Source of the DNA: Pycnococcus provasolii
Lineage: Eukaryota; Chlorophyta; Pseudoscourfieldiophyceae; Pseudoscourfieldiales; Pycnococcaceae
Direction of reading: 5' to 3'
NCBI GenBank assembly: GCA_938743325.2
Contig: OW568862.1
Location: 1,390,201-1,454,200, forward strand
DNA: 64,000 nt
The notes beneath the pieces are model-generated. The model did no database searches. It saw only the letters and a program-made list of their open reading frames with translations, and had not been told where the DNA came from. How positions within the stretch are numbered: the first letter of the stretch is position 1; every line of letters begins with the position of its first letter. Made by a program: the position numbers and the translations under genes. Positions 35,357 through 54,309 of this stretch are shown in pieces.

Positions 35357-35665
35357 CTGTGCAGTACTTCCCCTTGGCCGGGATCACCTTGCAAGCTCGC
35401 GGCCGGTGTGCAAGGTGTGTTTTTTTGTTTTTTTCACTGGCCGGAGTTTGGTAAGAAATAAGGAAGGGAAACCTCCTCTCCTCCTGGTTGGTGCGTAGGA
35501 AGGGGTCCCACCCTTGCGTGAAAGGCACGTTTGGCGCGAATACGAACTGGGAGAATGGATGATGGATCCTTCCCCGGTTCCCCCCCATCCATCACAGCTG
35601 GCACGGCGAACCATCACTCACATCTATCCATCACAGCGCATCATCGTCCGTCCATCCGTCCCGGC

Positions 35666-35947
35666 ATGTGTCATTGCTGGTTGATTGTCGGGCAGTACGC
35701 CACGGACGGGGTGAGGCACGACTATGGGCGCGCGGTGCAGGCGTATTATGGGTGGTCGGCGAACGACCCACTGCCAATACCCTGCCCAGAGCACAACCAG
35801 CACCACGAGCACTTCATCAGCAAGGCATCAATCGCCCGATGCGACGACGCGTATGAGAAAAAAGGGGTGCAAGTTCCCCCGCTTTTACAGCGCGGCCGCC
35901 GCCGCAGGCGTGTGGGCGCGGTGCGCGCGCGCCAAGGTCGCAGTTAA
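35666..35947 (+). CDS. Small conserved open frame of unknown function (left-arm copy)
   Basis: A 93-residue frame starting MCHCWLI with ATG and stop preserved at the same length in the right arm (54310-54591). Similarity between copies mainly reflects the recent duplication, but substitutions have not broken the frame. The composition is not simple repeat (RHDYGRAVQAYYGWSANDPL, PCPEHN), and a basic C-terminus follows. I recognise no family. It could equally be a remnant of a larger gene. Confidence 0.3.
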   Translation: MCHCWLIVGQYATDGVRHDYGRAVQAYYGWSANDPLPIPCPEHNQHHEHFISKASIARCDDAYEKKGVQVPPLLQRGRRRRRVGAVRARQGRS

Positions 35948-36044
35948 GATTAGGTTATTTTTTTTAGAGTAAAGGAAACAATTTCCAAAAAAAAAGGTGG
36001 TTGTGCTTATAACAAAAAATCCCGATTGTTGCAAATTAAAAAAA

Positions 36045-39000
36045 TTATTGATCCAATGCGAGGTATTGGATCTCGCTCTTGCTCTCGCCGCTCCTATACT
36101 TTACGCCGACGAGCCGTCCCGCGTGCTTCATCATCTCCTGTTTGTGGGTGATGACGATGAAGCACGTGGTGCTGCTCTCCGATGATTGCGAGCGTATGTA
36201 CTTCGCCACGCTCGTCACGTTCTCGCCGTCAAGCGCAGCGTCCACCTCGTCGAGCACGAAGAAGGGGCTCGGCTTGTACGCGTGGATTGCGAACAGAAGC
36301 GCGAGAGCCGCGACCGTTCGCTCTCCGCCGGAGAGCTGATCCATGTCCCGGTATCGCTTCGTCGGGGGCATCGCCGTGTACTTGCAGCCACCCTTGTGAG
36401 GCTCGTCGCTGCCTGTGCCGTCATCCTCGAGCGTCAGAAACGCAGAGCCACCAAGCGGGTGCGTAGCCGACGTGGTCAGCGCCTTGTATATTGCGTTAAT
36501 CTTGCCGGACACCGCGTTGAACGCATCCAGGATGCGGTTGCTCCGCTCCTCGCGCACGCCGCTAAATTCAACCTGGAGTGCCTTCAAGTTTTGGTTCGTC
36601 TCGTCAGCCTCGGTAGCCATTGCGCTCTCCTGCTTCTTCAGCGACTCGTACTCTTCGCGAGCCTTCGGGTTAGGTTCAAGGCGTTCGAATGCCGACGCGC
36701 GCTTCGAAACACCCTTCTGCATCTTCTCGAGGCGCGCCAAGAAATCCTGCTCAGCCTCGGAAGACGTGGAGGCTGATGTCGCCTTCGACACCTCGGCGCG
36801 GCGAGACGCGCACAGCTCCGCGACGTCCCCTGAAAGACCTGTGTACTCGAAGTGCTCGAGCTCCGTCAGCGCGTTGTTCGCAGCCTCTCCTTCGAATGTG
36901 CCTTCCGCCGCAGCCTGCTCGTCGCCATCCGCCATCTCCGCATCACCGGCAGCGGCAGCTGCACCGCGTCGCGCGCGCTTCGCAGCGCGCTTCGTGCCAG
37001 CGCCTCCCGACGCGCCCGCGCCACCCCCCTCCGACCCAGCCGCCGGAAGCTCGACGCTTTCCATCTCGCAGTTCTCGAGCACGTCGCGCACCTTCATTGC
37101 AATCTCCTCGCCTCGCGTCTGCATGTTCGTGATGCTGCGGTTGATACCTGCCAGCTTCGCCTGCTCCGCCGCTAGCTGCTTCTTCGTCTCTGCAATTTCA
37201 GCATCGAGCGCCGCCGTCTCCTTGCCGAGAGCCAGAAGCTTCTCCGACAGCTTGTTCCGCTTCGCCTCGTGCTTCTGCTCCGTCTTCTCCACCTTCTCCA
37301 TCTTCTCCCTGAGCTTGTCCGCCTCCTTCTTGTCCGCGTGAAGCTTGGCGCGCTGATCCTCCATCTTCTTCGCCAAGCCGCGCTTGCGCTCGTACTCAAT
37401 CTGAGTCTGCAGCGCCGCCTCCTGTTTCGTGAGCTTGGAGCGTTGTGCCGCCACCTCCTGCACCTGCGAGAAGTGCTTCTCCGCGATGTTCGCGACACCC
37501 ACGCGGCGCGAAAAGTCGCCAAACACGTCGTCGAGCTCGGCACGCAGCTTAGTTTCCTTGCCGGACACCTCGCTTGCCACCTTGGCATACTCCGCGGCAT
37601 GCTTCTCCGTCTGTGCCGCCGTGCGCTTTTTCTCCTCCTCGAGCGCCGCCGCCTCGCGCTCGAGTGTCTCAAGCGTCTTGGTAGCCTCCGCGAGATCCTT
37701 CTCGGCGTACCCGAGCTGCTGCTGAATGCTCGCGGCACGCCGTGCAAGGTCGTCCTGGGCAGCCTTCTGCTGCTCGGCGGTGGGCAGGCTGCGTAGCTCG
37801 CGCTCCGCCTCCGTGCGCTCCTTGCGCACCGCCTCGAACTGCGCTTCGGACCACCGCCCTGCGCGATTCGCGAGCGAGTGCATCGTTCCGCCAGTCATCA
37901 CGCCGCTCACGTCAATCTTCGTTCCCACGAGGTCCACCGCCTTGATGCGAGGGCCCGGCGGCGGTGCCGACGCTGCAGCGGCGCTGCCGGCGGAAGCAGC
38001 GGACGCGCCGCCGCCGAAGCACAGGCGGCTCGCCTCGTCGAGACTGTCGCAGACGACGGTGTTGCCGACGGCGTAGCGTGCAGCTCGCTCGAACTTAGCC
38101 TTCAGGTCGACGGCGCTCGGGTGCGCAGCCACCGCCGCGGCGTTCGGCGTGACGACGTCCATCATCAGGCGCGCGGTTCCGCCAAGCGAACGCAGGCGCG
38201 CGTCAATCTGCTTCGCCTGGATCGTCGTCACGGGCAGGAACGTCATGGGCGCCATCTTCTGCACTCGAAGGTGCGTGATGCAACTCTTCGCCGTCGCCTC
38301 CTCTTCGACGAGGATGGCGTCCATGTTGCGTCCCATCACCACCGTCACGGGCACGTTGTACTTTTTCTGCGTCACCGAGATGCAGTCCGTCATGCGCCCG
38401 TAGATGGTCGTCGAGTGAAGCCGCCTGAGGCTGTCTAGCGCACGGCGCTTCTGCTGCTCCGCCTCGCTCAGTTTCATGTCCGCGCGCGCGTCGCGGTACC
38501 TCTCCTCGAGCTCCTCGCACTTGCTCTCGAGCGTCTTGCGCCGTTTCGACTCCTTCTCCGCGCGCTGCGCGAGCTCCTGCTTCTCCGCGCGCATTCTGTC
38601 CATCGATGCGCGAAATTCCGCCTTCTGCGACGCCAGTGCCTCCGACGCCTTCGCCTGCTTCTCCTTGCGCTGCCTGAGATGTGTCGCCTGCTCGTCGAGG
38701 TCCACCGCCTGCTGCTCGGCGCGAGCCTTCTCGGCATCCGCCGCCTGGAGCGAGCGCTTCAGCGTGTCGATCTCCTGCTTGAGGCGGAACGTGCGGCTGC
38801 CCGCCACATGCTTCAGCCGTTGGTACTCCGCGACGTGCTGCTCCTGCAGCTTCGGCACGTCCCTGTCACCCGACGACGCGCTCGCGTCCAGCTCCTTGAG
38901 CGCCTCCTGAATCTTGCCGAGGTCCGTCTCCAATTTTGCGACGTCCTCCTTGTGAGCCGCCAGCTCCTCCTCGCGCTTTTTGAGCGCTTCTGCATTCTTC

Positions 39001-39923
39001 TTTGTCGACTTGTCGAGACGCGCCATCTGCTCCTTCGCCTGCAGCTTGGCTGGCCGCAGCTTCGCCACCTCCGCCGCCACCGCCTTCAGGCGCTTCTCCG
39101 CCGATGCCGTCGACGTCTGCACCTTCTTGCGCTTCGCCGTCTGGTCGTCGCGCCCCTTTTGGAGCGGCGCGAGCGTGCTCGCGTGCACATCCGCGCACGA
39201 TGCCTGCGCCACCCCAAGCGCCTGCCGCACGCCCGCCAGCTCGCTCTTGTGGTAGAGCAGCTGCACGAGCGCGAGCTTCGCGCGCTGCTCGGCGAGCTCC
39301 TCCTTCAAGCTGTTGAACTTGTCAGCCTCCTCAGCCTGCCCCTTCTTCTTGATTGCTTCGAGCATGACGGCCTTGCGCTTCAGGGATACTTCCCGCATCT
39401 TCGTCACGAGGCTGGTGCACTCCGCCTCCAGTTTTTCGTAGCGTGGCACGAGCGCGTCTGCGCCCGAGATGTGCTCGAACAGCTGCACGAGCTCGTGCGG
39501 CCCGCGTGACGCCACCTGCTCGACGTCACCCTGGAACACGAGAAAGTTTCTCGTCTTGGTGAGCACGCCGAAGCTCGCGAGCCTGTCCAGGTACGCCGCG
39601 GACGTGACCGTCTTCCCGTCGATGCTGTACGTCGCCTGCGCATTCTTAATGTCACGTCTGAACACGATTTCGTTCCCGTTCGGCTGCACGAATGCGAGCG
39701 AGACGTACGCGTTCTTTTCCCCGGTTGTGACCAGTTCACTCACCTGTCCACTTCGCAGGTGGCTGCTTCTCACGCCTACGACGAACGAGATGGCGTCCAT
39801 GAGGTTGGACTTGCCCGATCCGTTCGGCCCGACGACGCACGTGAAGTGTTCTTTGAAGGGGCCGACGACATGCGTACTTTTGTACGACTTGAAGTTGTGT
39901 ATCGTGAGACGGTCGAACGCCAT
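36045..39923 (-). CDS. SMC1: SMC1, cohesin ATPase subunit (copy a)
   Basis: SMC1 pairs with SMC3 to form the cohesin ring. The 1292-residue protein starts MAFDRLTIHNFKSYK, has Walker A GPNGSGKSN at residues about 32-40, two long coiled coils (residues about 170-500 and 690-1080), a hinge between them (GRMTDCISVTQKKYNVPVTV ... VDLVGTKIDVSGVMTGG), and a C-terminal head with signature LSGGERTVAALALLF and Walker B FFVLDEVDAALD, then a D-loop-like ENVTSVAKYI. All ATPase motifs are intact and the length is normal for SMC1. Class assignment rests on the SMC1-type N-terminus and NLMDAISFVVG. A low-complexity Ala/Lys/Arg insert (KRAAKRARRGAAAAA) lies near residue 960. A second near-identical copy is at 50274. 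Confidence 0.96.
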   Translation of the reverse strand: MAFDRLTIHNFKSYKSTHVVGPFKEHFTCVVGPNGSGKSNLMDAISFVVGVRSSHLRSGQVSELVTTGEKNAYVSLAFVQPNGNEIVFRRDIKNAQATYSIDGKTVTSAAYLDRLASFGVLTKTRNFLVFQGDVEQVASRGPHELVQLFEHISGADALVPRYEKLEAECTSLVTKMREVSLKRKAVMLEAIKKKGQAEEADKFNSLKEELAEQRAKLALVQLLYHKSELAGVRQALGVAQASCADVHASTLAPLQKGRDDQTAKRKKVQTSTASAEKRLKAVAAEVAKLRPAKLQAKEQMARLDKSTKKNAEALKKREEELAAHKEDVAKLETDLGKIQEALKELDASASSGDRDVPKLQEQHVAEYQRLKHVAGSRTFRLKQEIDTLKRSLQAADAEKARAEQQAVDLDEQATHLRQRKEKQAKASEALASQKAEFRASMDRMRAEKQELAQRAEKESKRRKTLESKCEELEERYRDARADMKLSEAEQQKRRALDSLRRLHSTTIYGRMTDCISVTQKKYNVPVTVVMGRNMDAILVEEEATAKSCITHLRVQKMAPMTFLPVTTIQAKQIDARLRSLGGTARLMMDVVTPNAAAVAAHPSAVDLKAKFERAARYAVGNTVVCDSLDEASRLCFGGGASAASAGSAAAASAPPPGPRIKAVDLVGTKIDVSGVMTGGTMHSLANRAGRWSEAQFEAVRKERTEAERELRSLPTAEQQKAAQDDLARRAASIQQQLGYAEKDLAEATKTLETLEREAAALEEEKKRTAAQTEKHAAEYAKVASEVSGKETKLRAELDDVFGDFSRRVGVANIAEKHFSQVQEVAAQRSKLTKQEAALQTQIEYERKRGLAKKMEDQRAKLHADKKEADKLREKMEKVEKTEQKHEAKRNKLSEKLLALGKETAALDAEIAETKKQLAAEQAKLAGINRSITNMQTRGEEIAMKVRDVLENCEMESVELPAAGSEGGGAGASGGAGTKRAAKRARRGAAAAAGDAEMADGDEQAAAEGTFEGEAANNALTELEHFEYTGLSGDVAELCASRRAEVSKATSASTSSEAEQDFLARLEKMQKGVSKRASAFERLEPNPKAREEYESLKKQESAMATEADETNQNLKALQVEFSGVREERSNRILDAFNAVSGKINAIYKALTTSATHPLGGSAFLTLEDDGTGSDEPHKGGCKYTAMPPTKRYRDMDQLSGGERTVAALALLFAIHAYKPSPFFVLDEVDAALDGENVTSVAKYIRSQSSESSTTCFIVITHKQEMMKHAGRLVGVKYRSGESKSEIQYLALDQ

Positions 39924-40418
39924 GCTTGTGGGAAGGCAGGGAGTGGGGCACCTGGTGGAGGGTGGAGGGTGGGGGCGAAGGGGCCTCCATGGGTGCGTGG
40001 CCGCGACCCTACAAGAACGCTGTTGGGGCGCGCGTGGCAATGGCAGAATGGGCGCGCGCCCGTCGGGCAGGCGGGGACGGACAGCCTTGAGGGAGTTGCA
40101 CCTTTCTGGATAGTTCCTTCGGATGTTGCCCAGCCTCCCCTCCACCTACGCGCATCCTGTGGAGTCTGAAGTCTGGAACATGCCACATCACCTTGCCGCA
40201 TCTTCCTAGTTCCTACTCGAGACATTTGAGGAATTGGCCAACCATACAGTAGGTGGCCTTATTCCCATTGGTATTCTTTTCCGTACGTGCATTGGCCCCG
40301 ACCTGTGACTCGTGCAAGATGGATGTTTTGTTCATCAGCGGCATCAGAGGACCTCCTCGGAGGGGGGAAATCCGGAAATGCCACCCTTAACGAGTCCCTT
40401 AAGGATCATAACTTAACA
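39924..40418. promoter_or_regulatory. Bidirectional promoter region of SMC1-a and MYB-SCC3
   Basis: About 495 bp between head-to-head start codons, so the two cohesin genes probably share control. The same region is duplicated at 49776-50273, differing by small changes including a 2-bp insertion (GAGAGTCCC against GAGTCCC) that breaks the short frame upstream of the ATG at 40419. This supports 40419 as the start. Confidence 0.6.
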
Positions 40419-43400
40419 ATGTCTACCTGTACGAAGAGGACAGCATCAGGAAGGAAAACCAGAAAAGATAAAGGAAAACCTAGGAGGCCGCGAAATAAAT
40501 GGACAGAAGAGGAACATAAGAAGTTTCTCAAGGCGCTCGACATGTACGGACGAGACTGGCACAAGTGTGCAGAACACATGCAAACGAGGGAAAGCAAGGC
40601 AATCGAAAGCCACGCGCAACATCACTTCATCAGGCTGTGCCATCAGGGAATCCCGCTACCCGCCAAGGTGGCGGAAAGCGGAGAAGGATACACGAAGAGT
40701 GGAAAACCGCTCGACCTTAACAGCGCAGCAGCTCAGGCTGTTCTCGCGTACTCGGGTGCCGCCGCCGCCGCCGCTGCCGCTGCTCCCGCCCCCGCTCCCG
40801 CTCCCGCTCCAGTCAAGCCGAACCAGATGAATGGACTGCACTTTCAGCCGCCTGTGACTTCGCAGGAGCAGCAGCAGAAACAAAAGAAAGGAAAGCAGGC
40901 ACTGTCGCCGCCAACGCCAAAGGCTGCTGCTGCAGCAACGACGTCGCCGCCTGCAGGAGCAGGAAACGCAAACGTCAACAACATGTACGAAGTGTGCCGA
41001 ACGGGTCCTTCCACGCACGTCACGGCGACGGCGAAAGCGCTCGTCCAGTCCGCGCTGACGAACGAACGAGGCGCTGTGAGCAAGCTCATCACGCTCACCA
41101 TGCGTGCAGCAGGCATCAACGCCGTTGACGCCGCCGTCGCACCCGCGGAGCTCGACAAGCCGAACGCCATGGACGCGCTCGTCGACGCCAAGGCGCAGGT
41201 GGCGCGCGAAACCGAGCTGGATGCAGAGTCTGTCAGAGACAAGATAGCACTCGCACACGGCGTGCATAGCATGTGGGAGCAAGTCGGGGCGATGGCGTGC
41301 GAGTCGGACGCCGCGCTGCGAGGCAACCTGCTCCAAACACTGTCCGACTTTGCCGTCAAGCTGTCCGCGTGCAGCGTTCGCGACCTGCGCACGTACGGGG
41401 CGCAGTTCGCGCTCGCGCTCATCACGTCGCTTGTGAGTACCGCGGCAAACACACAGAAGGTGCTCGTCTCCACGCAGCGCCAGCTGGAGGCGGCGCAGGG
41501 AACGGGGCAGCTTTGGGCGACGCTGAAGCACCTCATGGAGACGACGCAGAGCAAGCACGAGCGCCTGCACGACCACATCTCGTCGGTGTTCCAGGGCGCC
41601 TTCACACACCGCTTCCACGACGTCGACGTCACCGTCCGCAAAGCGTGCATCGAGAGTCTCGGCAGCTGGGTCGCCATGTACCCCACGCACTTCCTCGACG
41701 ACTCGTTTCTGAAGTACGTCGGATTGGCGATGAAAGACCTGGACCAACACGTGCGTCGCTCCGCGCTAGCGGCACTCAAGCCGCTGTACGCCCCCAAAAA
41801 GGGAAGCTCCATGCAGATTCAGGCTATGGATCTGTTCACGCAGCGATTCGCCCCACGCGTGCTGGAGATGACGTCGGACGTCGACCAGGGAGTACGCGTG
41901 GCGGCCATTGCGCTCGTACGCGCGATGCTCATCTCCGACGCGGCTGAAGATGGCACATTCTTCCTCGCCGAGAAGAAGGCGGCGGACAACGAGGCTGGTG
42001 CGTCGCCATCGACGCAGCCGGCGGAGCCGCGCGATCGCATGCTCGAGACGATTCGCAGCCTTCTCATCACGTGCCATGCAGAGGCTGTGCGTAAGGCTGC
42101 CGGCGACCTGCTCGCGGATGTGTACCTCGCATTCGCCGAGCACGTATCCGTGGCGAAGGGTCGGGCCGAAGGACGCGACGGTGCCACGCTCGGCGCGCTC
42201 GCGCAGCTCGCGTCATTCATCGGAAACGACGCGTCCTCGGAGGAAGTGGACAGCATCGTCGACGCCGTGGCGGAAAAGGCACCGGTTCTCCAGGACTGGG
42301 ATCTGCTCGTCAAGTGCATGACGTGCGACGAGGCGGCAGCTGCGCTGTCATCCGCCGCCGATCTTGAGGATGTCAGTGCGTCGACGTCGCCGGCGTCGTC
42401 GAAGGAAAAAGCGTCGAAGAAGGCGCGCAGCAGCTCTTCCAGCTCCTCTTCGGTCGCACTGCGCCGCGCAATCATGCGCCTGCTTGCATCCTCCGTGACT
42501 CGAATGGCAAAACTGGCGCGCGACAGTGACGCAACCTCGGGCTCGAGGAAGCGTGACGCCGAAAAGCACGGCGTTGCGCACAAGGAGGCGACAAGTGCAC
42601 TCAGTCTGCACGCACCCTCACTGCTGCGCCTCTTCGGGCTGCACGGCGTGGCTTCGGACGACGCCAGCCTTACCGCCGCGGTGAAGATGTTCGCCGCGCT
42701 GAAGCTCGATGTGTACTCGGCGAGGCGCGCCGAGGCGTCGTACTCTGAGGCGCTTACCCTCGTTCATCACGAGGCGGCACTCGCGCCCGCTCCCGCCTCT
42801 TCGGATCAGCCAGAGAGCTGGATGGCGGCTTTCGGATGCTTCGCCATTCTCGCAGATGCCGAGAAGAACGGCGCTATCCCTCCCACGCTGCGTGACGCAA
42901 TCGCCAACGAGACGTCAGCGCTGGCAGAGGTGCTAACCACGGCTGCGGTGGAAGCGTCAGAGCGCATCTCGTCGACGCTCGCATCCGCGAGCGCTGCAGC
43001 GGCGGCACCGTCGCGAGGCTGTGGCAAGCGCGGTCGAGGTGGCGGTGCTGCTCAGGTGGACGCGGAAGATTTGCTCGACGTGGATTCCTGGGCATTCACC
43101 AGCATTCTGCAGCCGATGCAGCGTCTCCAAGCCTTTCTCAATGCAACAGGCGGCGTGGCGATCTGCAACGAAGCGAGTCTGTGGGAGGAAGATGCGCGCG
43201 CAGCGAACCTGTTCGATGCGATCCACAGCGCGTGCAATGCGATGGCTACCGACGGCAAGTCCGTGCACGGCTCGATCGAACAAAGTGCTGTGAACAATCT
43301 GTACATGCTCTCGACGGCGCGTGCATACTGCGAAGGCGCGCGTCTGAACGACCGCGTCGCGGATGCGGCAGCCTCGGCGGAGGCGGCGATCCATTTGACG

Positions 43401-43703
43401 TCGTCAGAGAACACGGACTCAGATGCTGACGATGCGTTTCGGAGAATGAACGCTTTGACCGCCGTGTGCATCCTCGCAAACGCCATCGCTCCCGGCGTTC
43501 AATCGAATGCCGCTTACATGCCATCAGAAGCGGCGGGCAGGTCGCTGCACAGTGCCTGTGAAACGTCGGTCGCCCATCTTGCCGATCCCAACGCGATCGC
43601 CGTGCAGGTGGAAGTGGACAGTCCGAAGAAGAGGAAGAGGAACAGGAAGAGGAAGAGGAAGAGGAATAGGAAGTCAGGAAGAGGAACTTTAAAAATTAAT
43701 TAA
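40419..43703 (+). CDS. SCC3: MYB/SANT domain fused to SCC3/STAG cohesin subunit
   Basis: A 1094-residue chimera in one frame. Residues about 27-75 are a single SHAQKYF-class MYB repeat (NKWTEEEHKKFLKALDMYGR, then ESHAQHHFIRLC), normally a DNA-binding domain. An Ala/Pro/Gln-rich linker follows (about 105-190). From about 195 the protein resembles SCC3/STAG, the HEAT-repeat subunit that clamps DNA to cohesin: VRDLRTYGAQFALALITSLV, STQRQLEAAQG, ISSVFQGAFTHRFHDVDVTV, FLDDSFLKYVGLAMKDLD and LDLFTQRF-like motifs align with the STAG conserved domain. The C-terminus is a run of Lys/Arg (KKRKRNRKRKRKRNRKS). The MYB and C-terminal parts are visibly more AT-rich than the middle. An in-frame ATG at 40323 exists but is not preserved in the duplicated promoter. 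It converges with SCC2 and overlaps it at the stop. Confidence 0.85.
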   Translation: MSTCTKRTASGRKTRKDKGKPRRPRNKWTEEEHKKFLKALDMYGRDWHKCAEHMQTRESKAIESHAQHHFIRLCHQGIPLPAKVAESGEGYTKSGKPLDLNSAAAQAVLAYSGAAAAAAAAAPAPAPAPAPVKPNQMNGLHFQPPVTSQEQQQKQKKGKQALSPPTPKAAAAATTSPPAGAGNANVNNMYEVCRTGPSTHVTATAKALVQSALTNERGAVSKLITLTMRAAGINAVDAAVAPAELDKPNAMDALVDAKAQVARETELDAESVRDKIALAHGVHSMWEQVGAMACESDAALRGNLLQTLSDFAVKLSACSVRDLRTYGAQFALALITSLVSTAANTQKVLVSTQRQLEAAQGTGQLWATLKHLMETTQSKHERLHDHISSVFQGAFTHRFHDVDVTVRKACIESLGSWVAMYPTHFLDDSFLKYVGLAMKDLDQHVRRSALAALKPLYAPKKGSSMQIQAMDLFTQRFAPRVLEMTSDVDQGVRVAAIALVRAMLISDAAEDGTFFLAEKKAADNEAGASPSTQPAEPRDRMLETIRSLLITCHAEAVRKAAGDLLADVYLAFAEHVSVAKGRAEGRDGATLGALAQLASFIGNDASSEEVDSIVDAVAEKAPVLQDWDLLVKCMTCDEAAAALSSAADLEDVSASTSPASSKEKASKKARSSSSSSSSVALRRAIMRLLASSVTRMAKLARDSDATSGSRKRDAEKHGVAHKEATSALSLHAPSLLRLFGLHGVASDDASLTAAVKMFAALKLDVYSARRAEASYSEALTLVHHEAALAPAPASSDQPESWMAAFGCFAILADAEKNGAIPPTLRDAIANETSALAEVLTTAAVEASERISSTLASASAAAAAPSRGCGKRGRGGGAAQVDAEDLLDVDSWAFTSILQPMQRLQAFLNATGGVAICNEASLWEEDARAANLFDAIHSACNAMATDGKSVHGSIEQSAVNNLYMLSTARAYCEGARLNDRVADAAASAEAAIHLTSSENTDSDADDAFRRMNALTAVCILANAIAPGVQSNAAYMPSEAAGRSLHSACETSVAHLADPNAIAVQVEVDSPKKRKRNRKRKRKRNRKSGRGTLKIN

Positions 43704-44069
43704 TTACGAATTAACTCCCCTAAAAGAATATTGCCCAGATTATCAAAATCTGTTGATGGGTCAACTTCAAAAAATTCCGTACCATATGCAATCTTGTAAT
43801 GGCTGTTCATGTAAACCTTTAAACGGTTCTCCATCTCGCCTTCTTCACCTTCAAAGTACTCCTTAATCATTAACAACTTTTTAGGCTTGTTCGTGGCCTG
43901 GTAGTCTTTTTGAATTCTGCTTTTCAGACACTTATGCGACATCCCCACCTTCACCACAGACCAATCCTCTTTTTTCACTTCTTTTTTTCCTTGGAGGAGG
44001 AATGCGTACACTCCACTACGCCCTTCAAACGTACTCACTTTCTGCTTGATTTCTGCATCATTGATGACA

Positions 44070-44113
<44 letters not shown>

Positions 44114-47100
44114 CTCGTTGTCGTCCTCGTCGACTGCTGCACCTCTGCTACGCTTCATGCCAACCTTCTTTTTCGCTTTCTTGACAGCATGCGCGAGGGC
44201 TGCATAGTCTGTGCCAGCATCCTCCTGCTCGAGCCGCTTGGCTAGCTCACCAAGGCTGATTCCTTCGCCATCTCCTTGCAGGGCTCTGTGCACGTCCACC
44301 ATGCCGTTGATTATGGCAGCCGCGCCGTCGAAAGGCGAGCCGCTGCCTCTACCGACAGACCCCGCCGCTCCCGAAAAGTCCGTGGGCTTGTAGGATGCAA
44401 TACGCTCATCTGTTAAGCGGAAGCGCGCACGAAGGCAGGCCTTAAGGCGAAGGAGCAGGACGCCTGAGGCGAGCTTCTCGGTCGACGGTGTTGACCCGAG
44501 AGGCGCCTCGGTACCACCATCGTTGTCGCCGCCGCCGTCGTCGTCGTCAATCGTGAGAACGCCAAGTTTCGCGAGCTCGGCATTGCAGGCAACAACCACG
44601 TGAAGTGCCTCCGCCTGACGAACGTATGGTAGAGTCGCCAGAATGTCTGCGCTCAGCGCAGACAGCCACCAGCTTTGGACAGTAGTTTCCGCGATGTGGC
44701 GAATGGCAGACTCCAGGAAGCGGCGCTTGAAGCCGAGACGTGTGCCGAAAGCAGATGCGTACAATTCTCCCCAGATCACGAGCGCGTATGCCGGCGGAGT
44801 TGAGCTTGATCCCTTCAGCATACGAGCAGCAAGTTTAATGCCGTCTGCGAGACTGCTCGCAACGCGTCCGGCACCATCATTTGCGATGTAGCGATGCAGC
44901 TCTGCCGCCGCGCCACGGCGTAGCGATTCGTCGGGATCCGTCGTGGCACTGCGAAGAATGCTCGGGAGCGCCTCCTGCGGAGGCACGTGGCCGTGAACGA
45001 GAGCTGCGGCGACCACGGTGGTGGCTCGAGAGCGAACCGTAATGTGAGCGGACGCGTCGCCGCTCAGCTCCACGACGCGCGTGAAGTGCTCCTGGATGGC
45101 TGCCCCGGCGTGCGTCGCCACATCGTCGGTCGCGCCATTGATCTTGTTGATCGTCATTTTCTCCGCGCCGTTGCTGCAGCCGGCATCGGCTTTACTCTGC
45201 GCGTGCACGAGACGGTCCTCTTCCACGGCACTCAGCTCGGACAGGAGGCGAAGCACGCGATCCTGATCCTCTAGTGGAGAATTCTGGGAAAGGGCTCGCG
45301 CGAACAACGCATGCACGTCAAGGCGTTGCAGAAGCGGCGGGCCGCCAGCACTTTCCATGCTTGAACCTGCGTGCGCAGCGCGGCTTGCAGCCATTGCCGC
45401 ATCGCAGAGAGCGCCAAAAGCGAAGGAGGCGACCTGATTGTGCTGAGGATGGCTCGCCGTGCTCCCGTAGAGCTTTTGAAAGCGAACGTGCATCTGAGCT
45501 GCCGTTGTTGGTTTGAGCACCGATCCACCGCCGCTGCGCAAAAGGGCGCCAAGGGCGAAGAGCGCGCGTGGCACACGTGCCGCATCGTCGTCACCGGCGT
45601 CGACGCTGAGCTGTGCGCGGTAATGCGCGAAGAGACGCCCAACGCACGCGCGCGCGCGCGAATCTCCCGCTGCCGCCAGGCCGCATAGGGCAGTACTGGC
45701 AGTCTCGGCCACCTGACGCTGCGCTGCATTGGTGAAGAGGTTCACGAGCCTCTTCTCCGCCTCTGCGTATAGCACGTCTGAGATCGGCGGTCGAAGGCTC
45801 GCGCCCATGACGTGCAGGAGAACCAGCTTCGTCTCAGCTACACTTCGTGAATCGTCCCTCTTCGTGAGAACGATGTGAGGCACTAGCGACTGCATGGTGT
45901 CCGCCGGCGGAGGGCAGCCAGCCACATCGAGGGCGTGCAGAAAGAGAAGAGGCGCGAGCAGGGATCCGCCGGTTCCATCGCTCAGCCCGTCCACTGCCAT
46001 GTGAAGTGCCGCATCGCGGTGCACGTGCAGGCACTCGTCACCCATGTCGCGAAGGATGCGTTGCAGCAGCGCGACGAGCACAGTGTTGCGCCGCAGAGGA
46101 AGGCTGATAGCTCCCGAAGGTGAGGACGAGGCGCGAAAGTATTTTAGGGAGATAGTAGCCAGAACGCGTGCAGCCCTCTCGTCTTTGGTGGCTGCGCTGA
46201 GGTTCGCGGTGGGGCTTCCCAGGCCATTGCCGCCGCCGCCGCCGCCGTCATCGTCTTCTGCGTCATCGACGTCCACACTTGAGGGAGTCAGGCTGAGCAC
46301 GTCGATGAAGGTGCGCACGACAAGCGTTCGAATCGACTCCTCAGGGTCGTCGACTCGCCAAAGCACCTCAGCAAGAGCGTCCGTGGTGACGGCGTCGTCG
46401 AGCGAGGTGGCATGGAGCACATCGCGAAGCGTTGTCAGCGCAGCCTTGCGTACAGCCAGCGATGTATCTCGACATCGCTGTGCTAGTTTGGCGGTGAGCT
46501 CGGAACGATTGTCCGAGCTCACCGCCGCCGCTCGAACACTCGATGACTCGTCCGAAAGCGCATGTTCCACCGCCGCTCGGAATGCCGGCGCGTGCGTGGC
46601 AGACTCGGGATCCGCAGATGCGAGCTGGTGCAGCGCTTTCATGGCATGGCAGCGCACAGACGGAGATGATTCAAAGCGGCGATCAATCGCCTGTGTCAGC
46701 CACGTGAGCAGCACCGGCGAAGATAGCGGGACGAGGCGGCGTGTCGTTGCGAGAATACTTATGGCGAGCGAATATGTTTTCGAGTCATCGCTGGATGCTT
46801 GGCCCGCCGCCGCCGCCGCCGCCGCCACGCGCACATCCTCCAGGGGTTCCTGGAGGCGCCAATACCGAGGAAGCGTCGCATTGTCGCCGCTGCTTTTAAC
46901 CCCCCCTTCCGCCTCGAGGCAGTACAGCTTAGTCAGCGTGAATCGGCGTGCCAGAGCCATCGCCTGTAGGGCCGCATTGACGGGATATTCGAGCTCCGGA
47001 GATGCACGCTGTGGAGGAAGGCGTGCTGCGGCGGACCCGGTGGCTGCGAGTTGTAGCATAGCATAGTAATCCTGGCGCGGGTTTGTCTGTTGCTGCTGCA

Positions 47101-48751
47101 TCAGAGGGCTCACGATGGGAAGCGGTGGCGAAATTGCGCGTGCACCCGTTATCGATTCGGAATATGCCCCTGCTTTCTCAGATGAACATCGGACGAGGCG
47201 CACCCAGTAATGCCCATTCAAGAGCCGACGGTCCAAGTGGCAGCTAGACGAGGTGGGTGTAAACCACCCCATCTGTCTAGCCGCAAACTCGACGGGAATC
47301 CACCTACTCTTGCGCACGATCGAGCCGTCCTGCTGATCTTGAGCCTCGTCGGATGGAGGCATGCTCGCACCGTCACCAGTACGTGGCACCACAATGACGT
47401 GCACATCAAAGTCGCCGAGGCGCGTGCGCGTCGCCTTGGCATGCGCAAGAGCGTGTGCCACCACCTTTCCCACGACGTCGCAGGCGAGGCTGCGGTGCAG
47501 CACCTCCGTACTCTTGAATCCAAACCTACCTCCCAGTACCGTGCACAGCCCGTGCAAAATTACGTCGCAAGCGGGCCACAGCATATCGCCGTGGCTCTGC
47601 AGAGAGCACAGGTCTTCCACCACGGACTCGACGATCGCCTTGATGTCAATCTCTCGCTGCCTTGCGGTGGACACATTCTGAAGCAGCGCGATCCAGAAGG
47701 CGTCAACGTAGTGCGTGCACTTCGCGTGCAGGGCGCTCGATGCCGAGACATCGCCTTCGCCGCTCCTCTCTTGGCTTGGCAGCGACAGTGACGCCTGCAT
47801 GCACAAGACGAGCGCGGCAGACACGGGTCGCACATTCGCCGTCTTGGTGCCATCACATTCGCCGATGGGCATCATGCACGTGCGAATCTCACGGGTCGGA
47901 GTGCTCGGTAGGTCGGTGAGAATCTTTGCGAGGCTCGTGACGACGTCCAAGCGTGAGGCGTGGTGCCCGTGGTCGAATGCACACCACAGAAGTTCAAGCG
48001 ACGCCAGCTGCATCGGAACGAGTGGGTGCGGATTTGCTCGCGTGTTGGGCACCTCGAGCGCTCGCATCGCAAGGCGCTGGATCTGTGCCTGCAGCGTGCC
48101 TGCCAGCCGAATGCGCGCTTGCAGGCGAGCGAGCAGGGCATGCGCCTGAACCACCTTGGTGACAACAGGGTTGCTAGAGTCAGCAAGCACAGCCTCGACG
48201 TTCTCGCGCACGCGCTGGATGATTTGCTCAATCTGATCGTCGACGTACAGCTGAGGCGGTAAGTTGGGCAGCGTGAGTACCGAGAGTACTCCGTTGTCGT
48301 TTGAGCTGTCGTCGTTGGTGAAGTGCTCGATGAGAGACGATGCTGTTTTCTCGTCGATGTCACTCGACGAGCTTGAGTCAGCAGCAGCTTTGTGAGCTTG
48401 GCTCAGCGCCAGCGCGATGAAGGCGTTGACGGCAGCGTCGTGCTGTTTCGGTTGTTCCTTGCTAAGTATGGTCCCTGCCAGGGTGTGCAAGGTCTTCTGA
48501 GCAGGCGGCGGCGGCGGCGGCGGCGGCGGTGGTTGGCTGGCGATGCTTCGTGCGCGTTTAATTTGTCGCTGAGCCATTTCGTCGTCATCTTCATCTCCGT
48601 TGTCAGGTGACGGTGGTTGTGGAGTAGGCGGTGGCGGCGTTTGCGTTGGCGGCGTTTGCGTTTGCGTTTGCGTCGCAGCAGCCTCATCTGGCAGTGCCGC
48701 CGGTGCTGCCGCAGCAGCAACTGTGCGAGCCTTGCGCTTGCGCTTCGACAT
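43700..48751 (-). CDS. SCC2: SCC2/NIPBL-type cohesin loader with C-terminal GIY-YIG/T5orf172-like domain
   Basis: SCC2 with SCC4 loads cohesin onto DNA and stimulates its ATPase. The 1683-residue protein has a basic start (MSKRKRKARTV), a Thr/Pro/Gln-rich and poly-Pro N-terminus, then HEAT repeats. Diagnostic matches to SCC2/NIPBL are LAQRCRDTSLAVRKAALTTL followed by VLWRVDDPEESIRTLVVRTF, ARVPRALFALGALLR, VHALFARAL near LLSELSAVEEDRL, and HGHVPPQEALPSILRSATTD. After a poly-Asp tract, the last 105 residues (SGVYAFLLQGKKEV, VVKVGMSHKCLKSRIQKDY, MENRLKVYMNSHYK, GTEFFEVD) resemble a T5orf172/MUG113-type GIY-YIG domain, not expected in SCC2. That part is distinctly AT-rich. An upstream in-frame ATG at 49174 would add 141 residues, but these read through a poly-C and a repeat, so 48751 is preferred. 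Confidence 0.82.
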
Positions 48752-48790
48752 GCCCTTGCAAATGGGCGCGTGCCTTAGGCCGGGGGAGGA

Positions 48791-48810
48791 GGGGGGGGGG
48801 GGGGGGGGGG
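48791..48810. repeat. Poly-G tract upstream of SCC2
   Basis: Twenty consecutive G on the plus strand, 40 bp upstream of the SCC2 ATG. It is probably in the 5' UTR or promoter, and its length is likely unreliable in an assembly. Confidence 0.95.
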
Positions 48811-48954
48811 CAAGAGTTAGAGAGAGTTGGCAGCAGCTTCGCGGCTGGGATATTGCCCACCTTAATAGCTTAATCTTCGTGATGCAAGACCGGCCGCGAA
48901 CGTGCATTCGTGCAGATCTCCAGAAAGGGTCGTAGGCACTACAAGCGGCCCTCT

Positions 48955-49095
48955 GGGGGGTTTTGGGGCACTTTGCGCATTTCGCCTCTTTTGGGGCAGA
49001 ATCACGGCCCTCCCCTGAGCCTTGGGGCAGAATCACGGCCCTCCCCGGGGGTTTGGGGCAGAACCTCGGCCCTCCCTCAGGCAGAATCTCGGCCC
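48955..49095. repeat. Imperfect ~30-bp tandem repeat (GGGGCAGAATCACGGCCCTC)
   Basis: Four degrading copies of a unit containing GGCAGAATC(A/T)CGGCCC upstream of SCC2. The interval 48752-49615 otherwise holds an (AAAG)n tract (about 49217-49240) and a CTC-rich run (about 49310-49350), with no supported gene. Confidence 0.85.
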
Positions 49096-49448
49096 GCGTT
49101 CTTATAGGTAGGGGATTCGTACCACAGGGGAAGTGGCGGATCTCTTCCTGGTTGGACCTAACATTTTCGTCCATGAGGGAAGCGATAGTGGAAATTAAAA
49201 AAAAAAGGAAATCGCCAAAAAAGAAAGAAAGAAAGAAAGACCACCTTCTTAGGTTGTCTCATAGGCCCCACAGGATTGAAGCAAAAGTGTCAGAGTGGCG
49301 TAGGCTCCTCTCTCCCTTTCTCCTCTCTCCCTCTCTCCCTCTCTCCCTTTCTCCTCCCCTTTTTGCCCCGCAACCTTATTTTTTCTGTCGACAAGGCTTA
49401 TCAGACCAGGCATCAGGATGATGGGCGCGCGCGCGCGTGTGCGTGATT

Positions 49449-49775
49449 CTATAGATAGTCTATGTACAGGCAGACAGGTGAGTATGTAAAAGATATGTAA
49501 CAATTCTGTGTGTGGTAATTTGCACTGCGATGAAGATACCTTAGTTGCTCCAAGGTGGTAGACGGGGATGCGAGGCGCCCAAAAATGACGCCCCCTCCTC
49601 CCGGCCTACCACCTATGTGTTCTGCACACTTGTGCCAGTCTCGTCCGTACATGTCGAGCGCCTCGAGAAACTTCTTTTTTTCCTCTTCTGTCCATTCATT
49701 TCGAGGTTTGCGTCGTTTTCCTTTATCTTTTCTGGTTTTCCTTCCTGATGCTGTCCTCTTCGTACAGGTAGACAT
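49449..49775 (-). pseudogene. Truncated copy of the MYB-SCC3 5' end
   Basis: The first 53 codons match MYB-SCC3 from its ATG (MSTCTKRTASGRKTRKDKGK) through WTEEE and MYGRDWHKCAEH, with a few substitutions. Homology stops at 49616 where the inverted duplication ends; the frame then runs through unrelated sequence to a stop at 49449. Only the first two-thirds of the MYB repeat remains, so the SHAQ helix is lost. It retains the duplicated promoter and could be transcribed. Confidence 0.85.
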
Positions 49776-50273
49776 TGTTAAGTTATGATCCTTAAGGGAC
49801 TCTCGTTAAGGGTGGCATTTCCGGATTTCCCCCCTCCGAGGAGGTCCTCTGATGCCGCTGATGAACAAAACATCCATCTTGCACGAGTCACAGGTCGGGG
49901 CCAATGCACGTACGGAAAAGAATACCAATGGGAATAAGGCCACCTACTGTATGGTTGGCCAATTCCTCAAATGTCTCGAGTAGGAACTAGGAAGATGCGG
50001 CAAGGTGATGTGGCATGTTCCAGACTTCAGACTCCACAGGATGCGCGTAGGTGGAGGGGAGGCTGGGCAACATCCGAAGGAACTATCCAGAAAGGTGCAA
50101 CTCCCTCAAGGCTGTCCGTCCCCGCCTGCCCGACGGGCGCGCGCCCATTCTGCCATTGCCACGCGCGCCCCAACAGCGTTCTTGTAGGGTCGCGGCCACG
50201 CACCCATGGAGGCCCCTTCGCCCCCACCCTCCACCCTCCACCAGGTGCCCCACTCCCTGCCCAACCAACAAGC
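49776..50273. promoter_or_regulatory. Duplicated bidirectional promoter (SMC1-b / truncated MYB)
   Basis: The counterpart of 39924-40418, nearly identical apart from scattered substitutions and small indels. Both SMC1 copies therefore start under almost the same upstream sequence. Confidence 0.55.
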
Positions 50274-53200
50274 ATGGGTGTTACCTTCGACCGTCTCACG
50301 ATACACAACTTCAAGTCGTACAAAGGTACGCATGTCGTCGGCCCCTTCAAAAAACACTTCACGTGCGTCGTCGGGCCGAACGGATCGGGCAAGTCCAACC
50401 TCATGGACGCCATCTCGTTCGTCGTAGGCGTGAGAAGCAGCCACCTGCGAAGTGAACAGGTGGGCGAACTTGTCACCACCGGGGAAAACAACGCGTACGT
50501 CTCGCTCGCATTCGTGCAGCCGAACGGGAACGAAATCGTGTTCAGACGTGACATTAAGAATGCGCAGGCGACGTACAGCATCGACGGGAAGACGGTCACG
50601 TCCGCGGCGTACCTGGACAGTCTCGCGAGCTTCGGCGTGCACACCAAGACGCGAAACTTTCTCGTGTTCCAGGGTGACGTCGAGCAGGTGGCGAGACGCG
50701 GGTCGCACGAGCTCGTGCAGCTGTTCGAGCACATCTCGGGCGCAGACGCGCTCGTGCCACGCTACGAAAAACTGGAGGCGGAGTGCACCAGCCTCGTGAC
50801 GAAGATGCGGGAAGTATCCCTGAAGCGCAAGGCCGTCATGCTCGAAAAACTCAAGAAGAAGAGGCAGGCTGAGGAGGCTGACATGTTCGACAGATTGAAT
50901 GAGGAGCTCGCCGAGCAGCGCGCGGAGCTCGCGCTCGTGCAGCTGCTCTACCACAAGAGCGAGCTGGCGGGCGTGCGGCGGGCGCTTGGGGTGGCGCAGG
51001 CATCGTGCGCGGATGTGCACGCGAGCACGCTCGCGCCGCTCCAAAAGGAGCGCGACGACCAGACGGCGAAGCGCAAGAAGGTGCAGACGTCGAAGGCATC
51101 GGCGGAGAAGCGCCTGAAGGCGGTGGCGGCGGAGGTGGCGAAGCTGCGACCAGCCAAGCTGCAGGCGAAGGAGCAGATGGCGCGTCTCGACAAGTCGACA
51201 GAAAAAAATAAAAAAGCGCTCAAAAAGCGCAAAAAGGAGCTGGCGGCTCACAAGAAGGACGTCGCAAAATTGGAGACGGACCTCGGCAAGATTCAGGAGG
51301 CGCTCAAGGAGCTGGACGCGAGTGCGTCGTCGGGTGACAGGGACGTGCCGAAGCTGCAGGAGCAGCACGTCGCGGAGTACACACGGCTGAAGCAGGTGGC
51401 GGGCAGCCGCACGTTCCGCCTCAAGCAGGAGATCGACACGCTGAAGCGCTCGCTCCATGCGGCGGATGCCGAGAAGGCTCGCGCCGAGCAGCAGGCGGTG
51501 GACCTCGACGAGCAGGCGACACATCTCAGGCAGCGCAAGGAGAAGCAGGCGAAGGCGTCGGAGGCACTGGCGTCGCAGAAGGCGGAATTTCGCGCATCGA
51601 TGGACAGAATGCGCGCGGAGAAGCAGGAGCTCGCGCAGCGCGCGGAGAAGGAGTCGAAACGGCGCAAGACGCTCGAGAGCAAGTGCGAGGAGCTCGAGGA
51701 GAGGTACCGCGACGCGCGCGCGGACATGAAACTGAGCGAGGCGGAGCAGCAGAAGCGCCGTGCGCTAGACAGCCTCAGGCGGCTTCACCCGACGACCATC
51801 TACGGGCGCATGACGGACTGCATCTCGGTGACGCAGAAAAAGTACAACGTGCCCGTGACGGTGGTGATGGGACGCAACATGGACGCCATCCTCGTCGAAA
51901 AGGAGGCGACGGCGAAGAGTTGCATCACGCACCTTCGAGAGCAGAAGATGGCGCCCATGACGTTACTGCCCGTGATGACGATCCAGGCGAAGCAGATCGA
52001 CGCGCGCCTGCGTTCGCTTGGCGGAACCGCGCGCCTGATGATGGACGTCGTCACGCCGAACGCCGCGGCGGTGGCTGCGCACCCGAGCGCCGTCGACCTG
52101 AAGGCTAAGTTCGAGCGAGCTGCACGCTACGCCGTCGGCAACACCGTCGTCTGCGACAGTCTCGACGAGGCGAGTCGCCTGTGCTTCGGCGGCGGCGCGT
52201 CCGCTGCTTCCGCCGGCAGCGCCGCTGCAGCGTCGGCACCGCCGCCGGGCCCTCGCATCAAGGCGGTGGACCTCGTGGGAACGAAGATTGACGTGAGCGG
52301 CGTGATGACTGGCGGAACGATGCACTCGCTCGCGAATCGCGCAGGGCGGTGGTCCGAAGCGCAGTTCGAGGCGGTGCGCAAGGAGCGCACGGAGGCGGAG
52401 CGCGAGCTACGCAGCCTGCCCACCGCCGAGCAGCAGAAGGCTGCCCAGGACGACCTTGCACGGCGTGCCGCGAGCATTCAGCAGCAGCTCGGGTACGCCG
52501 AGAAGGATCTCGCGGAGGCTACCAAGACGCTTGAGACACTCGAGCGCGAGGCGGCGGCGCTCGAGGAGGAGAAAAAGCGCACGGCGGCACAGACGGAGAA
52601 GCATGCCGCGGAGTATGCCAAGGTGGCAAGCGAGGTGTCCGGCAAGGAAACTAAGCTGCGTGCCGAGCTCGACGACGTGTTTGGCGACTTTTCGCGCCGC
52701 GTGGGTGTCGCGAACATCGCGGAGAAGCACTTCTCGCAGGTGCAGGAGGTGGCGGCACAACGCTCCAAGCTCACGAAACAGGAGGCGGCGCTGCAGACTC
52801 AGATTGAGTACGAGCGCAAGCGCGGCTTGGCGAAGAAGATGGAGGATCAGCGCGCCAAGCTTCACGCGGACAAGAAGGAGGCGGACAAGCTCAGGGAGAA
52901 GATGGAGAAGGTGGAGAAGACGGAGCAGAAGCACGAGGCGAAGCGGAACAAGCTGTCGGAGAAGCTTCTGGCTCTCGGCAAGGAGACGGCGGCGCTCGAT
53001 GCTGAAATTGCAGAGACGAAGAAGCAGCTAGCGGCGGAGCAGGCGAAGCTGGCAGGTATCAACCGCAGCATCACGAACATGCAGACGCGAGGCGAGGAGA
53101 TTGCAATGAAGGTGCGCGACGTGCTCGAGAACTGCGAGATGGAAAGCGTCGAGCTTCCGGCGGCTGGGTCGGAGGGGGGTGGCGCGGGCGCGTCGGGAGG

Positions 53201-54143
53201 CGCTGGCACGAAGCGCGCTGCGAAGCGCGCGCGACGCGGTGCAGCTGCCGCTGCCGGTGATGCGGAGATGGCGGATGGCGACGAGCAGGCTGCGGCGGAA
53301 GGCACATTCGAAGGAGAGGCTGCGAACAAAGCGCTGACGGAGCTCGAGCACTTCGAGTACACAGGTCTTTCAGGGTACGTCGCGGAGCTGTGCGCGTCTC
53401 GCCGCGCCGAGGTGTCGAAGGCGACGTCTTCCAAGGCGGCTGAGCAGGCTTTCTCGGCGCTCCTCGAGGAGATGCAGAAGGGTGTTTCGAAGCGCGCGTC
53501 GGCACTCGAACGCCTTGAACCTAACCCGAAGGCTCGCGAAGAGTACGAGTCGCTGAAGATGCAGGAGAGCACAATGGCTACCGAGGCTGACGAGACGAAC
53601 CAAAAATTGAAGGCACTCCAGGAGGAATTTAGCGGCGTGCGCGAGGAGCGGAGCAACCGCATCCTGGATGCGTTCAACGCGGTGTCCGGCAAGATTAACG
53701 CAATATACAAGGCGCTGACCACGTCGGCTACGCACCCGCTTGGTGGCTCTGCTTTTCTGACGCTCGAGGATGGCGGCACAGGCAGCGACGAGCCTCACAA
53801 GGGTGGCTGCAAGTACACGGCGATGCCCCCGACGAAGCGATACCGGGACATGGATCAGCTCTCCGGCGGAGAGCGAACGGTCGCGGCTCTCGCGCTTCTA
53901 TTCGCAATCCACGCGTACAAGCCGAGCCCCTTCTTCGTGCTCGACGAGGTGGACGCTGCGCTTGACGGCGAGAACGTGACGAGCGTGGCGAAGTACATAC
54001 GCTCGCAATCATCGGAGAGCAGCACCACGTGCTTCATCGTCATCACCCACAAACAGGAGATGATGAAGCACGCGGGACGGCTCGTCGGCGTAAAGTATAG
54101 GAGCGGCGAGAGCAAGATCCAATACCTCGCATTGGATCAATAA
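50274..54143 (+). CDS. SMC1: SMC1, cohesin ATPase subunit (copy b)
   Basis: A 1289-residue protein starting MGVTFDRLTIHNFKSYK. All hallmarks are intact: Walker A GPNGSGKSN, hinge, signature LSGGERTVAALALLF and Walker B FFVLDEVDAALD. It differs from copy a by scattered replacements in the N-terminal head and first coiled coil (for example SEQVGELVTTGENNAY, EEADMFDRLNEELAEQ) and near the C-terminal coiled coil (ATSSKAAEQAFSALLEEMQ), with small indels. From the middle of the hinge to the Ala/Lys/Arg insert (about 52001-53329) the two look identical at the base level. Both genes are open, so both are probably functional, with either dosage or specialised roles. Confidence 0.96.
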   Translation: MGVTFDRLTIHNFKSYKGTHVVGPFKKHFTCVVGPNGSGKSNLMDAISFVVGVRSSHLRSEQVGELVTTGENNAYVSLAFVQPNGNEIVFRRDIKNAQATYSIDGKTVTSAAYLDSLASFGVHTKTRNFLVFQGDVEQVARRGSHELVQLFEHISGADALVPRYEKLEAECTSLVTKMREVSLKRKAVMLEKLKKKRQAEEADMFDRLNEELAEQRAELALVQLLYHKSELAGVRRALGVAQASCADVHASTLAPLQKERDDQTAKRKKVQTSKASAEKRLKAVAAEVAKLRPAKLQAKEQMARLDKSTEKNKKALKKRKKELAAHKKDVAKLETDLGKIQEALKELDASASSGDRDVPKLQEQHVAEYTRLKQVAGSRTFRLKQEIDTLKRSLHAADAEKARAEQQAVDLDEQATHLRQRKEKQAKASEALASQKAEFRASMDRMRAEKQELAQRAEKESKRRKTLESKCEELEERYRDARADMKLSEAEQQKRRALDSLRRLHPTTIYGRMTDCISVTQKKYNVPVTVVMGRNMDAILVEKEATAKSCITHLREQKMAPMTLLPVMTIQAKQIDARLRSLGGTARLMMDVVTPNAAAVAAHPSAVDLKAKFERAARYAVGNTVVCDSLDEASRLCFGGGASAASAGSAAAASAPPPGPRIKAVDLVGTKIDVSGVMTGGTMHSLANRAGRWSEAQFEAVRKERTEAERELRSLPTAEQQKAAQDDLARRAASIQQQLGYAEKDLAEATKTLETLEREAAALEEEKKRTAAQTEKHAAEYAKVASEVSGKETKLRAELDDVFGDFSRRVGVANIAEKHFSQVQEVAAQRSKLTKQEAALQTQIEYERKRGLAKKMEDQRAKLHADKKEADKLREKMEKVEKTEQKHEAKRNKLSEKLLALGKETAALDAEIAETKKQLAAEQAKLAGINRSITNMQTRGEEIAMKVRDVLENCEMESVELPAAGSEGGGAGASGGAGTKRAAKRARRGAAAAAGDAEMADGDEQAAAEGTFEGEAANKALTELEHFEYTGLSGYVAELCASRRAEVSKATSSKAAEQAFSALLEEMQKGVSKRASALERLEPNPKAREEYESLKMQESTMATEADETNQKLKALQEEFSGVREERSNRILDAFNAVSGKINAIYKALTTSATHPLGGSAFLTLEDGGTGSDEPHKGGCKYTAMPPTKRYRDMDQLSGGERTVAALALLFAIHAYKPSPFFVLDEVDAALDGENVTSVAKYIRSQSSESSTTCFIVITHKQEMMKHAGRLVGVKYRSGESKIQYLALDQ

Positions 54144-54309
54144 TTTTTTTAATTTGCAACAATCGGGATTTTTTGTTATAAGCACAACCACATTTTTTTT
54201 GGAAATTGTTTCCTTTACTCTAAAAAAAGTACAACCTTTTTTAGTACAACGCGTCGTCTATCGCGAACAACTCGCGGACTCGTTTCCGACAGCGGTGGCG
54301 AACTTAACC

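Follow-up and report, generated by a model that had tools for sequence, protein, structure and literature searches.

The window analysed here, the terminal 64 kb of contig 2 in the genome of the marine prasinophyte Pycnococcus provasolii (strain CCAP190/2; 32,333,900 bases in 46 contigs), holds four adjacent genes of the cohesin machinery, namely an SMC1, an SCC3/STAG, an SCC2/NIPBL and a second SMC1. Its standout feature is that three kinds of long cohesin-machinery open reading frames (ORFs) occur together. All three kinds have near-identical partners elsewhere in the genome, their ends are chimeric, and the two SMC1 copies lie in an inverted repeat; the cluster copies are written here as SMC1' (copies A and B), SCC3' and SCC2'. 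Our favoured but tentative explanation, to which we give close to an even chance, is a young secondary cohesin cluster, in which the centres of ordinary genes were copied and given other ends, with a doubling of SMC1, the products possibly forming an auxiliary cohesin. A first-pass annotation had recognised the four genes and is partly supported overall; the ordinary copies elsewhere, the chimeric ends and the inverted duplication of SMC1 had gone unseen in it.

The SMC1' copy A ORF (36045-40145, minus strand, 1366 amino acids) matches the Pfam families SMC_N (3.5e-60) and SMC_hinge (9e-20), and the copy B ORF (49971-54143, plus strand, 1390 amino acids) matches the same families (1.1e-60 and 1.3e-19). 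Their likely coding sequences are about 36045-39923, with the Met at 39923, and 50274-54143, with the Met at 50274, the start codons being taken from an alignment. Walker A, LSGGER and Walker B strings are present in both, and the best solved-structure match of both is human SMC1A (8.2e-139 for A and 1.3e-143 for B). The SCC3' ORF (40287-43703, plus strand, 1138 amino acids, first Met at 40323 or 40419) matches SCD (6.1e-21) and STAG (5.2e-7) in Pfam and SA-2 among solved structures (1.4e-27). The SCC2' ORF (43700-49174, minus strand, 1824 amino acids, probable start Met142 at 48751) matches Nipped-B_C (1e-9) and Cohesin_HEAT (2e-7), and NIPBL among solved structures (1.5e-21). NCBIfam gives general SMC/ATPase and Myb matches only. 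Pfam and solved-structure matches thus agree on the four names proposed in the first-pass annotation, including the STAG and NIPBL assignments on which its claim had depended. The SCC3' and SCC2' ORFs stand tail to tail with overlapping stop codons. The window contains no runs of N, and the available part of the assembly report describes HiFi reads at 444x, Hi-C curation and a quality value (QV) of 58.2 (PMC11130579), so the four genes are contiguous, as had been claimed, as far as the assembly record shows.

DNA searches of the genome, which score the best candidates and so give copy lists that are lower bounds, locate an ordinary copy of each gene kind. The ordinary SMC1 lies at contig 40:41330-45067 (96% identity to the cluster), the ordinary SCC3 at contig 12:255844-258613 (96%, pairing with the SCC3' body at 40862-43619) and the ordinary SCC2 at contig 18:418732-423589 (94-97%, pairing with the SCC2' body at 44165-48725), with an additional SCC2 piece on contig 22; the SCC3 and SCC2 search scored the best 33 of 34 candidates, with the query's own place unlisted. 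The three ordinary genes sit in open frames of 1344 (SMC1), 1324 (SCC3) and 1941 (SCC2) amino acids, stop to stop, which rules out that the cluster is the organism's sole cohesin set. In a family search (best 13 of 48 candidates scored), the SMC genes listed include SMC3 on contig 23 and SMC4 on contig 19. The kleisin C-terminal domain is found at one locus and the N-terminal domain at two, contig 6:964949-966822 (two pieces) and contig 32:456443-456736, the latter with no match to the C-terminal domain. Cohesin subunits are ancient; as a rule each has one gene or a set of anciently duplicated ones, and these genes are not linked. The suggestion that linkage of these genes is unusual is borne out within the same genome, where the ordinary SMC1, SCC3, SCC2 and SMC3 are spread over contigs 40, 12, 18 and 23, and the check for further copies proposed with it is answered by the near-identical genes on the first three of these.

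The homology to the donor genes starts and stops within the cluster ORFs, and for SMC1, SCC3 and SCC2 alike the matching stretch lies within the ORF of the donor. The head of SCC3' carries a Myb DNA-binding domain of the SHAQKYF class (40491-40625, plus strand; Pfam and NCBIfam), and its DNA at 40500-40738 and 40752-40821 matches a gene combining Myb and JAB at contig 12:820214-820607. At its other end SCC3' lacks about 300 C-terminal amino acids of the contig-12 protein, leaving the C-terminal HEAT region incomplete. SCC2' lacks 102 internal codons of the contig-18 copy and differs from it at the N-terminus, the part of SCC2 through which SCC4 is bound. Its C-terminal tail (43703-44041, minus strand) weakly resembles MUG113 (E 0.002), which we take to be a GIY-YIG-related family, and a phage endonuclease family (E 0.015); the MUG113 score of 19.1 bits lies below the Pfam cut-off of 22.3, so that the tail is not assigned as a GIY-YIG nuclease. 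A protein search of the genome matched the tail only to itself, and a search of viral contigs confirmed no close viral relative. The ends of SCC3' and SCC2' are unlike the ordinary protein ends. In SMC1', the last 43 or so amino acids differ from the contig-40 end; copies A and B have this end in common, and it is SMC-like, yet unlike that of contig 40, with no DNA match outside the two arms of the inverted repeat among the matches listed. The C-terminal end of SMC1 is its kleisin-binding part. Dense islands of difference also occur within the otherwise near-identical SMC1.

The inverted duplication spans 5.4 kb and pairs a left arm at 35218-40579 (minus strand), holding SMC1' copy A with its flanks, with a right arm at 49615-55050 (plus strand), holding copy B, in blocks of 97.6% (4633 bp) and 95.0% (756 bp) identity. 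Substitutions between the arms number 72 in 3861 aligned coding sites versus 40 in 1482 sites outside (p=0.07). The indels between the arms are multiples of three in 3 of 3 coding cases and 0 of 7 cases outside (Fisher p=0.008). The coding sequence of copy B was taken from 50277 in this comparison rather than from its Met at 50274, which leaves the indel classes unaffected. Two further SMC1 fragments lie to the right of the cluster on the plus strand, one at 55306-56431 with three frame-shifting indels and related fragments on contigs 14, 4 and 12, and a shorter one at 62121-62429 with one frame-shifting indel.

Comparison of the cluster ORFs with their donors gives the same picture. All 12 indels called by the aligner are multiples of three; they amount to about 10 distinct events, since a 9-bp deletion is common to A and B, and deletions of 144 and 162 bp can be aligned as one of 306 bp. 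Among seven dispersed fragments, of which six belong to SMC1 and one to SCC2, by contrast, the frame is broken by 14 of the 17 indels, many of these 14 being shared by descent, and 3 are multiples of three. None of the four cluster ORFs has a premature stop, against neutral expectations of 3.5 for A, 4.4 for B, 2.8 for SCC3' and 4.3 for SCC2'. The simulated neutral chance of no stop is about 0.008 for SMC1 (with 170 substitutions, where the pooled differences of A and B come to 153), 0.06-0.12 for SCC3 and 0.013-0.015 for SCC2; A and B are not independent, as 83 changes are common to both. There is statistical support for selection having maintained the reading frames. The co-inherited module proposed in the first-pass annotation gains support from this frame protection as a maintained unit, short of proof; its further suggestions, a meiotic or sex-linked cohesin or a selfish-type locus, are conjectural.

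Several results weigh against a maintained, derived cluster. The seven dispersed fragments are likewise without stop codons, and when half of the substitutions are placed on the cluster branch, the chance of finding no stop rises to 0.07-0.34 per gene. The cluster was moreover noticed for its long ORFs, so that the absence of stops is to some extent built into the way it came to attention. The ratio of nonsynonymous to synonymous change (dN/dS) is close to 1 (1.10 for A against contig 40, 1.12 for B against contig 40, 0.97 for A against B, 1.02 for SCC3' and 1.31 for SCC2'). The nonsynonymous share of changes, observed over expected under neutrality, is 0.79/0.76 for A, 0.78/0.74 for B and 0.75/0.72 for SCC3', all indistinct from neutral (p 0.48, 0.32 and 0.65). 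Sites that are conserved across the SMC paralogues of this genome carry fewer changes, though not significantly (p 0.20 and 0.06, with the swapped C-terminus excluded). SCC2' scores 79 bits against NIPBL and the contig-18 gene only 69. The two specificity controls, meant to show that other genes lack such copies, are weak: no long near-identical copy is listed either for the neighbouring genes at 4800-14800 (best match 205 bases at 100%, longest 412 at 71%; best 39 of 68 candidates) or for a 10-kb query from the SMC3 region (longest 748 at 64%; best 39 of 216), but in both the query's own place is unlisted, so that perfect matches can be missed.

The excess of nonsynonymous change in SCC2' (0.80/0.71, p=0.007, about 0.03 after correction) is the sole departure in the four tests. 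Taken together, in-frame indels, the lack of stops and near-neutral residue change make the frames look kept while the residues drift or adapt. For the other two gene kinds the ordinary genes outscore the cluster copies, with 541 bits for the contig-40 SMC1 against human SMC1A (468 for A, 484 for B) and 126 bits for the contig-12 SCC3 against SA-2 (100 for SCC3', best rows). These two cluster kinds therefore look derived, so that derivedness is indicated for two of three. The SCC2 order is reversed, and that SCC2 was copied in the same direction is our inference. Synonymous divergence is alike for the three genes, at 3.4-4.9%. Two other origins of the differences were considered and rejected. 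Introgression from a relative fails because dN/dS near 1 is unfit for two conserved orthologues, and a hypermutation of C to T resembling repeat-induced point mutation does not fit ratios of transitions to transversions of 47/51 (A), 67/65 (B), 49/46 (SCC3') and 116/80 (SCC2').

SCC3' keeps its SCD domain, and one residue of its surface is altered. The codon TTG at 41724-41726 (plus strand) encodes Leu480, which aligns to W334 in the conserved essential surface of SA2 and where contig-12 SCC3 and human SA-2 keep Trp; W334 is placed by the offset between structure-chain numberings, with chain 7zjs assumed to be numbered at full length. The Arg-Phe pair following Leu480 is retained, and F371 is presumably also part of this surface in SA2. 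According to the available part of a report on SA2, W334 and R370 belong to the conserved essential surface, the W334A substitution impairs SGO1 binding, and the same surface serves CTCF (PMC10279526). With the surface Trp replaced by Leu480, SCC3' is filed as a derived SCC3 and not as a full functional equivalent. The replacement may indicate a loss of regulation through YxF motifs.

Under the favoured reading of a young secondary cluster, the central parts of SMC1 (contig 40), SCC3 (contig 12) and SCC2 (contig 18) would have been copied to chromosome 2 and the copied gene bodies joined to other ends, with SMC1 doubled later through the inverted duplication. SMC1' and SCC3' might associate with a kleisin and with the SMC3 that both sets would share, and be loaded by SCC2', and the Myb head could bring this auxiliary cohesin to DNA independently of the usual partners. 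The pocket with Leu in place of W334 would respond more weakly to YxF-motif regulators such as shugoshin. The near-neutral amino acid change would fit a role, whether stage-specific, dosage-related or partly interfering, for which the proteins must fold but can do without their ancestral contacts. A stronger version, which we consider distinctly unlikely, would make the cluster a self-contained second cohesin kit inherited as one block, with its own SMC1, a DNA-binding SCC3 and a loader with a nuclease-like tail, acting in a sequence-targeted way beside or against the standard complex.

The main rival is neutral duplication debris, which we regard as doubtful though a serious contender: segmental duplication would have brought partial copies of long genes into a fragment-rich region, where by chance they would still be open. 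The near-neutral residue change speaks for debris, as do the position of the donor segments inside donor ORFs, the weak specificity controls, both with the query's place unlisted, and the many SMC1, SMC4 and dynein-related copies elsewhere. For the condensin gene SMC4, at least eight more internal pieces are found, each 150 bases or longer and 94-99% identical (three on contig 40, two on contig 7, two on contig 12 and one on contig 4), and together with the multi-copy dynein-related stretch described below they indicate that cohesin genes are not alone in having scattered pieces. Pieces of SMC4 lie at contig 12:301890-303241 and contig 40:20196-23359, and some 18-21 kb separate the three on contig 40 from the ordinary SMC1. 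Frame protection, in turn, argues against debris, both in the cluster compared with the fragments (12 of 12 in-frame indels versus 3 of 17) and within the same arms (3 of 3 versus 0 of 7), as does the meeting of three genes of one machine, each a long ORF.

The remaining explanations are less likely. An antagonistic or selfish locus, whose altered subunits might bias the inheritance of chromosome 2 or counter a driver elsewhere, would account for truncated and chimeric duplicates, the SCC2' excess, the altered SCC3 pocket, the scatter of SMC1 and SMC4 fragments over several contigs and the repeat-rich setting, and we consider it improbable. Less probable again are old paralogues of which gene conversion, with the ordinary genes as its source, has overwritten some parts, the difference islands and ends being remnants of old divergence; the dense islands in a near-identical SMC1 and its SMC-like C-terminus, unlike that of contig 40 and with no DNA match outside the arms among those listed, suit this view, while the dissimilar ends of SCC3' and SCC2' do not, and the like synonymous divergence suggests one period of origin. 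That the SMC1 arms are mainly a source of double-stranded RNA tuning SMC1 expression seems very unlikely: their length of 5.4 kb, their identity of 95-98% and the fragments on several contigs would serve such a role, but the 9-kb spacer holds two large genes, and SCC3', SCC2' and the frame protection would be left unexplained. An assembly artefact, as a misjoin of haplotypes or repeats, is the least credible of all; repeats surround the cluster and the contig ends with no telomere, but there are no N runs, the assembly rests on deep HiFi coverage with Hi-C curation and a high QV, and the junctions fall inside open frames.

Vertebrates possess meiotic cohesin paralogues, SMC1-beta, STAG3, REC8 and RAD21L, while SMC3 stays single; these paralogues are old, unlinked and not chimeric. 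The cluster resembles this set in its extra SMC1 and SCC3, and here also one SMC gene is assigned to SMC3, with SMC genes on contigs 15 and 1 outside the assignment. It differs in being linked and apparently young and in including the loader SCC2. The RanGAP of the Drosophila Segregation Distorter is a driver formed by a truncated duplicate, and is thus likewise an altered partial duplicate of a housekeeping gene; in the cluster, however, several genes of one machine are affected, and any drive is conjectural. Extra copies of cohesin genes are also described in a microbe, where the available part of the report on Rad21 paralogues of Fusarium oxysporum concerns the kleisin only (PMC6591460), whereas the cluster has SMC1, SCC3 and SCC2 and no kleisin. 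Centromeric proteins of Caenorhabditis have reportedly been duplicated again and again, the duplicates not lasting long; this case similarly involves chromosome segregation, with centromeric histones rather than cohesin as the subject of the text available (PMC9577544), and a report of positive selection on SMC complexes, as far as its accessible part goes, suggests fast amino acid change in SMC-complex genes elsewhere too (PMC11431564). Among the papers listed in literature searches of a partial library, none described a cluster of this kind, a fusion of SCC3 with Myb or cohesin in P. provasolii. Duplicated cohesin subunits are thus known already, and the young, linked and chimeric form appears to be new. 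If the favoured reading holds, the cluster would be a natural experiment in the rewiring of a chromosome machine, in which conflict or specialisation in the segregation of chromosomes could be tested. As two strains are sequenced, with assemblies of very unequal size, 32.2 Mb for CCAP190/2 and 22.7 Mb for NIES-2893 (GCA_015473125.1), the presence or absence of the cluster and its age are directly testable.

The transposons and telomere repeats that had been placed beside the cluster are present in the window, with the long arrays lying about 10 kb to its left. Two Ty1/copia-like elements stand in inverted orientation, a left one at 19342-25176 (minus strand) and a right one at 28151-34221 (plus strand), whose long terminal repeats (LTRs) at 28151-28370 and 34002-34221 show a single difference in 220 sites. 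The pair 19342-25176 and 28385-34221 shows 16 differences in 5835 aligned sites, and the outer LTR of the left element is unmatched where a subtelomere-like block starts. Telomere-type repeats occupy 25384-25686 and 26368-26493. The first stretch (plus strand) consists of CAATTAGGGTTA units and then a TTAGGG array, resembling the chromosome start of contig 40; after 700 bases a CCCTAA array follows to 26493, with its degenerate part on the left, so that subtelomere-like material lies inside contig 2. That two telomeres simply fused head to head at 25.4-26.5 kb was rejected, as the degenerate part of the right array faces away from the cluster, contrary to the simple orientation; these arrays may be interstitial or subtelomeric repeats. 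Short TTAGGG-type runs occur also near 34.8-35.3 kb and 55.0 kb.

A gene of the chlorophyll-binding family at 26752-27459, presumably of the PsbS type, fits a prasinophyte. An ORF at 4886-6463 fuses RmlC-like and RmlD-like domains in a single frame. To the right of the cluster, 58348-58950 holds 8.7 copies of a 69-base tandem unit with relatives on contigs 14 and 12, and the stretch 59923-62109 contains an ORF matching the dynein AAA_6 domain (1.6e-156) and is near-identical to contig 14:633922-636108 and contig 2:1247262-1249448 and, in part, to stretches on contigs 24 and 7. Contig 2 terminates in a repeated stretch with no telomere, where a SUEL-lectin ORF region (62430-64000) has copies of 94-95% identity on contigs 28, 14, 11 and 3, and a 118-base stretch at the start of contig 2 also matches this region.

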